DNA of 40,938 bases from an uncultured Silvanigrella sp. (GTDB taxonomy: Bacteria; Bdellovibrionota_B; Oligoflexia; Silvanigrellales; Silvanigrellaceae), in NCBI GenBank assembly GCA_903933385.1, contig CAIZJW010000011.1, forward strand, positions 1 to 40,938, written 5' to 3'. This document shows positions 16,711 through 18,232 of this stretch, piece after piece. Positions within the stretch are counted from its first letter, which is position 1. The number at the start of each line of letters is the position of its first letter. Under the pieces are notes generated by a model. The model ran no database searches. It was not told where the DNA came from and saw nothing but the letters and a program-made list of their open reading frames with translations. A program made the translations under genes and the position numbers.

Positions 16711-17361
16711 ATGCATACAACGCCAGAATTGAGTCGAATTGAAAAAGCGGGTGAAATCCTTTTCCGTTTGCGTGACTACACCCCAATTCCAATCATTCTG
16801 CTTGCGATTCTTTTTGCACAACCGACGCTTGGAACGCTTGTGTTTGGTGGATGTTTAGCGTTGTTAGGTGAATTCTTGCGCACCTATGGGGTCGCGTACA
16901 TTGGAACAATCTCCAGAACCCGCAGCTACTCAAACGGGCAGTTGGTTCAAGAGGGGCCATTCGCGCTCCTGCGCAATCCACTCTATTTCGGAAACTTGGT
17001 GCTCAGTGTTGGATTAGCCTTCATGTGCAACGTATCGTGGTTGCCTGCTCTGGTTGTGGTGGTGTTCTACGCACAATATATTCCGGTTGTTGCGTGGGAA
17101 GAGCGTAAACTCAATCACATCTTCGGAGAAGCATATGCACAGTACTGCGCGACGGTGCCAAATCGATGGTTCCCGAGTCTCGGAAGAATTCGCGCAACTA
17201 ACCTCTATGCGGCTCCACAATCCTGGAAACCTGCCATCAAAAGTGAAAAACGGACTCTCACATCGGTTGTTGCCTACTTCATCATCATGACAGCTCTGTT
17301 TTGGTTCGCATACCAAGGAAGCATGGAACTTCCTTTGATTTCAAAACTCACGAACCATTGA
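16711..17361 (+). CDS. Isoprenylcysteine carboxyl methyltransferase (ICMT)/phospholipid methyltransferase-family membrane protein
   Basis: This 216-residue integral membrane protein has about five hydrophobic segments. The hallmark C-terminal SAM-binding region is RNPLYFGNLVLSVGLAF, then WEERKLNHIFGEAYAQYCATVPNRWFP. This pattern (RNPxY ... EExxLxxxFGxxYxxYxxxVxRWxP) defines the ICMT/PEMT-like superfamily. The bacterial substrate is unknown: lipids or small lipophilic molecules are likely, not prenylated proteins. ATG 16711 has TGAGGA upstream. It is the last protein gene of the peptidase-rdgC-like unit. The next 300 bp hold no protein gene, only the candidate regulatory RNA. Confidence 0.83.
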   Translation: MHTTPELSRIEKAGEILFRLRDYTPIPIILLAILFAQPTLGTLVFGGCLALLGEFLRTYGVAYIGTISRTRSYSNGQLVQEGPFALLRNPLYFGNLVLSVGLAFMCNVSWLPALVVVVFYAQYIPVVAWEERKLNHIFGEAYAQYCATVPNRWFPSLGRIRATNLYAAPQSWKPAIKSEKRTLTSVVAYFIIMTALFWFAYQGSMELPLISKLTNH

Positions 17362-17464
17362 ATTTCGCCTCGAGCTGTTTCTCGCGACAACTTCCCCCCG
17401 GGATGCAAAAACGTCTCATTCAGAGCTCTGAGTCTGCTCCGAAACAAACTTCAGCGGGCTCTGT
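17362..17464. other. Intergenic stretch upstream of candidate regulatory RNA
   Basis: No coding signal is seen. It contains the 12-bp palindrome TCAGAGCTCTGA (17420-17431) and a GGGATG at 17400. A clear -35/-10 pair was not found. Confidence 0.5.
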
Positions 17465-17697
17465 GGGTAGTTTTGCGACGCTCCAGGGACGGGGAAAAAC
17501 AGCCTCTATGCGCAGGAAGCGCTCTTGTGCCTTTGAGAAAGGTTCAGGACTGCCAGGATGGTCGATTCTCAGGAAGAGAATCTGCTTTGGGGAGGCGAGT
17601 TGATCGACTGCTTTGCGCGGAGCCCGCTTTGTTCTCTCGTTTGAACGAGTGAACTTTTAAAAACGCCAGGTCACGTTGTGGCTTGGCGCTTTTTTTT
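17465..17697 (+). ncRNA. Candidate CsrB/RsmZ-type CsrA-sequestering small RNA (novel)
   Basis: The non-coding stretch holds four CAGGA motifs within 62 nt: CAGGAAG (17513), CAGGACT (17545), CAGGATG (17554) and CAGGAAG (17570). Three match the CsrB repeat consensus CAGGA(U/A/C)G exactly. Two sit precisely in hairpin loops: GCGC-AGGAA-GCGC (17510-17522) and GATTCTC-AGGAA-GAGAATC (17564-17582, perfect 7-bp stem). The 17555 AGGAT lies in the loop of a short CC/GG stem. Further GGA triplets occur at 17487, 17493, 17591 and 17619. The RNA would end at the strong terminator 17664-17697. The 5' end is not defined. A 12-bp palindrome TCAGAGCTCTGA (17420-17431) upstream could be an activator site. It could instead be the 3' UTR of the upstream operon. 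CsrA itself is not in the window. Confidence 0.6.
17664..17697 (+). terminator. Strong bidirectional rho-independent terminator
   Basis: An 11-bp stem including two G-U pairs (17664-17674 with 17678-17688) closes the triloop GTT and is followed by C and eight T's. On the minus strand the same hairpin is followed by TTTTT (complement of the A's at 17659-17663), so it can also end the apt transcript. The T-run overlaps the apt stop codon at 17696-17698. Confidence 0.92.
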
Positions 17698-18232
17698 ACA
17701 AAGTGAGGAGTGAGTATACGCCTGCCTGAGGCGAAAGCTCTTGCAATGATTTTCGTCCGGCCAAAAAACTCAATTCAATCACGAAAGAAAAACCAGCTAC
17801 TGTTCCGCCATTGGCTTGAATCAGCCTGGCAACAGCTCCCGCCGTTCCACCCGTGGCAACCACGTCATCAACAACGAGATATCGAGCGCCCGGAACAATC
17901 GAGGCTTTTTGAATTTCAACATGATCAATACCGTATTCGAGGGTGTAGCTCTGTTTGAGAACTTCCCCTGGAAGCTTTCCAGACTTACGAGCTGGAATAA
18001 AGGGAACTCCTAATTCCGCTGCCAATGGCATTGCAAAAAGAAAACCACGACTTTCCATGCCCACAACATGTGTCGCCGAGCAGTCACCCGCATGTTCTGC
18101 CAAGTGCCTCAGCACCCTTTTAAAAACTGCAGGATTCGCGAGGAGTGGGCAAATGTCCTTGAAGACAATCCCGGGCTTAGGGAAATCGGGGTAGTCTTTT
18201 AGAACAGAGAGAAGCTCTTGTTGAATATTCAT
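17696..18232 (-). CDS. apt: Adenine phosphoribosyltransferase
   Basis: This 178-residue cytosolic enzyme salvages adenine to AMP using PRPP. Features: the N-terminal DYPDFPKPGIVFKDICPLL segment, MESRGFLFAMPLAAELGVPF with the adenine-binding part, RKSGKLPGEV, and the PRPP motif YLVVDDVVATGGTAGA near residue 125. Length fits the family (~180). ATG 18232 has GAAGGA upstream. It follows prfB by 89 bp on the same strand and ends inside the bidirectional terminator. Confidence 0.96.
   Translation of the reverse strand: MNIQQELLSVLKDYPDFPKPGIVFKDICPLLANPAVFKRVLRHLAEHAGDCSATHVVGMESRGFLFAMPLAAELGVPFIPARKSGKLPGEVLKQSYTLEYGIDHVEIQKASIVPGARYLVVDDVVATGGTAGAVARLIQANGGTVAGFSFVIELSFLAGRKSLQELSPQAGVYSLLTL

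Follow-up and report, generated by a model that had tools for sequence, protein, structure and literature searches.

A Putative CsrA Sponge RNA in the FliW-Bearing Family Silvanigrellaceae

The locus studied here raises the question of whether a noncoding RNA of the CsrB/Rsm type can be found in a lineage that encodes FliW. CsrA-titrating sRNAs have been described mainly in Gammaproteobacteria, where fliW is absent, and the literature leaves it open whether sRNAs and FliW operate jointly (PMC7652899, PMC13407953). The locus lies on contig CAIZJW010000011.1 of an uncultured Silvanigrella sp. (assembly GCA_903933385.1; G000 hereafter), and the whole stretch of DNA analyzed, 40,938 nt in length, is called the window. 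An initial annotation, made without database searches, had proposed a CsrA-sponge RNA of ~200 nt at 17480-17697, between a methyltransferase gene and apt, and had named among its checks a csrA gene in the genome, AGGA loops in relatives between the same genes, and a covariance model. Our analysis supports that reading, with transcription and CsrA binding being inferred only. We consider it likely that the locus specifies a noncoding RNA of ~250 nt that titrates CsrA in the manner of CsrB/Rsm RNAs; transcription, binding, and titration are inferences, as there are no expression or binding data.

Motif cluster at the locus

The motifs claimed by the initial annotation are present in the sequence. 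Four CAGGA motifs occur within 62 nt (at 17513, 17545, 17554, and 17570), three of them exact matches to the CsrB repeat CAGGA(U/A/C)G; two perfect hairpins with AGGAA loops lie exactly at 17510-17522 and 17564-17582; at least eight GGA triplets had been claimed in about 150 nt, and eight were found within 17487-17621; and the stretch does end in a strong intrinsic terminator (stem at 17664-17688 and a U-run). Besides, two more GGA loops had been missed (AGGGAC at 17485-17490 and AGGAU at 17555-17559), as had a long-range closing stem, the 5' half of which is truncated by a start at 17480. The proposed start and length did not hold; the structure begins near 17440-17453, and the RNA is ~250 nt long.

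The GGA density alone is unremarkable, since eight to nine GGA triplets are also found in other 150-nt segments of the window. The CAGGA count of 4 compares with a mean of 0.27 in shuffled sequences (P = 0.0002), and the CAGGAHG count of 3 with a mean of 0.07, a value of 3 being reached in 0 of 5,000 shuffles. Hairpin loops of the type AGGAN or ANGGAN, with at least 3 closing pairs, numbered 4, compared with 0.17 for the shuffled sequences (P = 0.0004); elsewhere in the window, neither strand has a 150-nt stretch with more than two such loops. The arrangement CAGGANG-N4-34-CAGGANG-N4-34-CAGGA has a single occurrence in the 3.3-Mb genome, which is the RNA site. The fold of 17476-17697, excluding the closing stem, was also better than those of dinucleotide shuffles (z = -2.5). 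A coding region was rejected, since the open reading frames running through the RNA core are not common to the relatives.

Anatomy of the predicted RNA

The features of the locus are listed in Table 1. The 5' end of the RNA was inferred from a conserved CGAAA at 17440, the real start being possibly up to ~30 nt further upstream, and the 3' end was set at the terminator U-run. The closing stem encloses four hairpins with AGGAN/ANGGAN loops (H1, H2, H4, and H5), and P1 and P2 together contain 5 pairs with double-sided changes among the three same-genus genomes. The ensemble prediction frequently shows the H4 loop as paired, and in the sister genus described below H4 competes with an alternative pairing. 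Conserved unpaired segments also exist besides the GGA loops, namely, GGGGAAAAACAG in the window genus and UGGUUGC in the sister genus. Judged from sequence, the terminator can act in both directions and could therefore serve the convergent apt gene as well. A promoter search upstream of the RNA in the window genus gave no good sigma-70 match, and the best matches to the UvrY/GacA palindrome TGTAAGN6CTTACA had 3 to 6 mismatches, none of them common to both genera.

Table 1. Predicted features of the RNA locus and its neighbors (window coordinates)
Feature	Position	Strand	Remarks
Proposed CsrA-sponge RNA gene	17440..17697	+	~250 nt; alignable over its full length with G001 and G002; alignment with the sister-genus RNA runs from CGAAA on
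Conserved upstream block (CGACAACTT...TGCAA...CTC), candidate promoter/control region	17385..17439	+	Kept in three genomes
P1, long-range closing stem	17453-17465 paired with 17614-17628	+	
P2, closing stem	17466-17472 paired with 17606-17612	+	
Inner helix	17476-17479 paired with 17599-17602	+	
Inner helix	17502-17507 paired with 17591-17596	+	
H1, CUCC-AGGGAC-GGGG, ANGGAN hexaloop	17481..17494	+	G002 loop AUGGAC, only the free N changed
H2, GCGC-AGGAA-GCGC, CsrB-type pentaloop	17510..17522	+	G002 loop AGGAU; GGA retained in 3/3
H3, compensatory changes in stem	17524..17548	+	Loop without GGA; one GGA at stem base
H4, GCC-AGGAU-GGU	17552..17562	+	G001 ACC-AGGAA-GGU; G002 AGUAA, loop GGA lost
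H5, GAUUCUC-AGGAA-GAGAAUC	17564..17582	+	AGGA retained in 3/3, final loop base variable
Hairpin between core and terminator	17631..17654	+	Loop without GGA; predicted fold in all three genomes
Intrinsic terminator	17664..17697	+	Stem 17664-17688 and U-run; bidirectional by sequence
PEMT/ICMT-like methyltransferase, upstream neighbor	16711..17361	+	Pfam PF04191/PF04140; ahead of the RNA in 3/3 same-genus genomes
apt, adenine phosphoribosyltransferase, convergent downstream neighbor	17696..18232	-	Pfam PF00156; relatives at 83-88% identity

Conservation within the genus

Two further genomes of the genus were shown by DNA search to carry the RNA, G001 (contig of VGHE01000003.1) and G002 (contig of RFOM01000050.1), in both cases behind the same methyltransferase gene. 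When the fold was checked on the three sequences, 97% of the pair cells were standard pairs, compared with 40-47% in slid controls, and 9 pairs showed double-sided changes. The loop substitutions fall on degenerate positions of ANGGAN/AGGAN (AUGGAC in place of AGGGAC in H1; H2, H4, and H5 differ in their final base). The sole exception to the retention of loop GGA in these RNAs is H4 of G002 (AGUAA). The terminator of G002 has been replaced by an unrelated one, GAGACCGGC-AGGAU-GCCGGUCUC, the loop of which is a CsrB repeat, so that the GGA-loop count of G002 is still four. Both the conserved structure and the retention of the loop motifs are shown, and two of the named checks, the AGGA loops of relatives (kept, apart from the single H4 loss) and the covariance model (fold supported, relatives found), came out favorably.

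The location between the same genes held only in part. The upstream methyltransferase gene is shared by all three genomes of the genus, whereas apt as the flanking gene failed in G002, where it lies ~4 kb further on, so that proximity to apt is not required; in the sister genus, the RNA occupies another locus, upstream of prs. As a side observation, the public records of the same-genus genomes are labeled "Betaproteobacteria bacterium" and "Proteobacteria bacterium"; the ranks disagree, and at least the first label is possibly wrong.

A probably related RNA in the sister genus

We also scanned 2.4 Mb of a complete sister-genus genome (G010, 32% GC) for clusters of at least 3 AGGAN/ANGGAN hairpin loops, a procedure that does not rely on similarity. 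Outside open reading frames, one nonrepetitive cluster was obtained, between a carboxypeptidase gene and prs. It has three GGA hairpins (UCCCC-AAGGAA-GGGGA, GCCU-AUGGAU-GGGU, and AACUCC-AAGGAA-GGAGUU) within a long closing stem, followed by U7. A covariance model built from this RNA (R2) found it in 7 of the 8 sister-genus genomes, flanked by the same two gene families where these were read, with an extra open reading frame between the RNA and prs in G006. The RNA of the window genus thus adjoins apt, and that of the sister genus precedes prs; both genes specify enzymes concerned with PRPP, which is probably a coincidence.

Among six distinct sister-genus sequences, 93% of the cells pair (slid controls, 41-48%), double-sided changes occur in 20 of the 42 pairs, and GGA is present in 18/18 loops. 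With both genera pooled, loop GGA is retained in 29 of 30 loop instances from nine distinct sequences. A -10-like TATAAT/TATAAA stands at near-constant spacing upstream of the conserved CGAAA in the sister genus, which favors a promoter of its own there; this is inferred from sequence alone, and the window-genus promoter is not clear.

It is likely, though not certain, that the RNAs of the two genera are one family of common descent, because they find each other reciprocally and have the CGAAA at the 5' end, the order of their parts, and the overall plan in common. At 6 of the 7 loci, the window-genus covariance model (R1) had its best hits on the sister-genus RNA, with scores from 10.5 to 25.2 bits, the highest unrelated score being 7.3, and the best window hit of the sister-genus model R3 was 17442-17639 (17.1 bits; the next elsewhere had 10.8, excluding the adjacent terminator at 13). 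The evidence for homology from sequence alone is weak, and R2 finds nothing in the window genus.

Over 58 genomes of the class, R1 matched only the three window-genus genomes. No convincing match to R1 or R2 was obtained for the family members G003, G004, and G005, and in G003 and G004 the RNA is not behind the methyltransferase gene, which is closely followed by another gene instead. An R1 hit in G003 at a lax threshold (17 bits, L069) was rejected for want of a cluster of at least 3 CsrA-type loops, and an R2 hit in G013 (17.8 bits) was rejected because GGA loops are absent. In G013, which is assigned to the sister genus, CsrA is shorter and divergent (H55), and the RNA was not convincingly matched; this genome (1.5 Mb, 72% complete) is possibly reduced, misplaced, or merely incomplete.

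CsrA and FliW in the lineage

The csrA gene named as a check by the initial annotation was found, a favorable outcome. It is present in a single copy in G000, G001, and G002 and occurs in 49 of the 58 class genomes, and the RNA-binding residues L4, R6, V42, and R44 are in place. The fliW gene is present in 50 of the 58, the family of the window genome included. In all 13 window-family genomes having both genes, fliW lies apart from csrA (on a different contig in draft genomes and ~1.5 Mb away in two single-contig genomes), whereas the two are adjacent in 34 of 35 genomes elsewhere in the class, the single remaining case being a fragmented assembly.

CsrA N55, the FliW-contact residue, has been described as invariant in CsrA-FliW systems (PMC13407953). 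Residue 55 is N in 25/25 other class genomes read and I, T, or H in 13/13 family genomes (I in G000, G001, G002, and G004; T or H in the remaining members). The presence of both genes and the absence of N55 and of csrA-fliW adjacency are therefore shown; that the FliW brake on CsrA is uncoupled in the family is possible, being a correlation inferred from gene order and residue 55. Since the family is one clade, the csrA-fliW split and the loss of N55 count as one evolutionary event rather than as independent replication, and the timing of these changes relative to the RNA is unresolved, because G003 to G005 gave no R1 or R2 hit. The csrA gene of G000 (L001:1501-1935) also encodes a long charged C-terminal extension, ~90 residues past the core, which is found in G001 and G002 as well.

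Comparison with known systems

An Rfam search of the window RNA gave no family at gathering score, including CsrB, CsrC, RsmX, RsmY, and RsmZ, and the best RsmY score (10.9 bits; gathering score, 57) is noise; thus, the RNA is not a member of those families. The sister-genus RNA has no Rfam match either. Identity with 6S RNA was rejected, as the locus gave no 6S match and 6S RNA is on another contig; that 6S RNA gene (L029, contig C28 of G000) scored 56.1 bits, somewhat over the gathering score of 46.4.

The repeats of CsrB have the sequence CAGGA(U/A/C)G and lie in hairpin loops (PMC7652899), and CANGGANG hexaloops are high-affinity sites (PMC4894983). The window RNA resembles CsrB/CsrC of Escherichia coli in its exact CAGGA(U/A/C)G loop repeats, intergenic position, intrinsic terminator, and the presence of csrA in the genome. 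It differs from them in having 4 loop sites, whereas CsrB has about 18, in having a long-range stem that closes the platform bearing these sites, in lacking a detected UvrY-type box and an Rfam match, and in belonging to a lineage with FliW. RsmX/RsmY/RsmZ of Pseudomonas are similar in their few GGA hairpin loops and comparable size, and their C-ANGGAN-G hexaloops are matched by H1 and by the sister-genus RNA, but the global fold is different and no GacA box was found.

Two systems of FliW-bearing organisms can also be compared. The flaA leader in the CsrA-FliW network of Campylobacter jejuni has conserved ANGGA hairpin loops and is able to titrate CsrA, a likeness that is inferred on the side of the window RNA. 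That leader has two sites and belongs to a target mRNA as its 5' UTR, whereas the window RNA lies behind a gene and has its own terminator and four sites. The FliW-CsrA partner switch of Bacillus subtilis, C. jejuni, and Geobacter sulfurreducens likewise involves genomes with both csrA and fliW, which in the window family are not neighbors, and residue 55 of CsrA is there I, T, or H instead of the FliW-contacting N.

Alternative explanations

We regard it as unlikely that the locus belongs to the methyltransferase mRNA as its 3' UTR (in the sister genus, to the carboxypeptidase mRNA), acting as an mRNA-derived CsrA sponge or as a mere CsrA-controlled stability element. In favor of this alternative, a same-strand gene immediately precedes the RNA, the distance being ~80-90 nt in the window genus and 55-60 nt in the sister genus, a terminator was not detected in the gap after the methyltransferase gene in the window, the window-genus promoter is unclear, and a precedent exists in RsmU, an mRNA-derived RsmA sponge reported in Xanthomonas (PMC7694677). 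Against it, the structure is kept behind unrelated upstream genes in two genera, the sister-genus -10-like element precedes CGAAA at near-constant spacing, and a conserved block precedes the RNA in the window genus.

It is less probable still that this is a structured RNA with another role, the AGGA loops serving tertiary contacts or a different protein. The large conserved fold and the conserved unpaired segments outside the GGA loops would suit such a role, but several loops of one RNA share the CsrA consensus while the stems vary, the last loop base varies (A, U, or G) contrary to GNRA-type loops, there is no Rfam match, and 6S RNA is accounted for elsewhere in the genome. A chance motif cluster in an intergenic spacer with a terminator can be all but ruled out; nothing except the small number of motifs speaks for it, and the shuffle tests, the uniqueness in the genome, the covariation in two genera, and the loop GGA retention of 29/30 speak against it.

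Proposed mechanism and evolutionary reading

The explanation that we prefer remains the CsrA sponge. In the proposed mechanism, the long-range stem would fold the RNA into a multibranched platform displaying the four AGGAN/ANGGAN-loop hairpins, each GGA loop providing a site for one binding surface of the CsrA dimer. Accumulation of the RNA would draw CsrA off its mRNA targets, which would then be derepressed. The RNA would belong to a family represented in two or more genera of this GTDB family, and it may have assumed some of the control of CsrA from FliW, a takeover suggested by the facts that fliW no longer adjoins csrA and that CsrA lacks N55. Any division of labor with FliW is an inference. 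Against the sponge reading stand the small number of loop sites (only 3 to 4, compared with 22 GGA in CsrB), the frequent pairing of the H4 loop, the lack of a recognized UvrY/GacA box and of a clear window-genus promoter, the lack of convincing model hits in G003 to G005, and the fact that FliW is still encoded.

A bolder reading is that the sponge arose independently of the gammaproteobacterial CsrB/Rsm RNAs and records a switch from protein to RNA in the control of CsrA, set in a FliW-encoding lineage and in the same family where the csrA-fliW pair split and CsrA lost its FliW-contact residue. We would not lean toward or against this reading.

Significance and further search

Our search of the literature found nothing joining CsrA and Bdellovibrionota, although coverage was partial and absence is no proof. 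On the likeliest reading, the locus specifies a CsrB/Rsm-type CsrA sponge, absent from Rfam, in a FliW-bearing lineage where sponges were not expected; its binding to CsrA is inferred. The window lineage combines CsrA, FliW, a sponge-like RNA, and a CsrA altered at the FliW contact, and it may provide a test case for the coexistence of RNA and protein control. The covariance models offer a means of seeking such RNAs in other FliW-bearing lineages.

In a motif search across the class, the inspected hits to the CAGGANG cluster were coding or tandem repeats, except for the window site and its G001 copy (not every hit was opened). In G019 and G043, from other families of the class, arrays of repeats containing CAGGATGAC (L082 and L090) occur many times per genome; they resemble dispersed repeats and would mislead CsrB motif searches.
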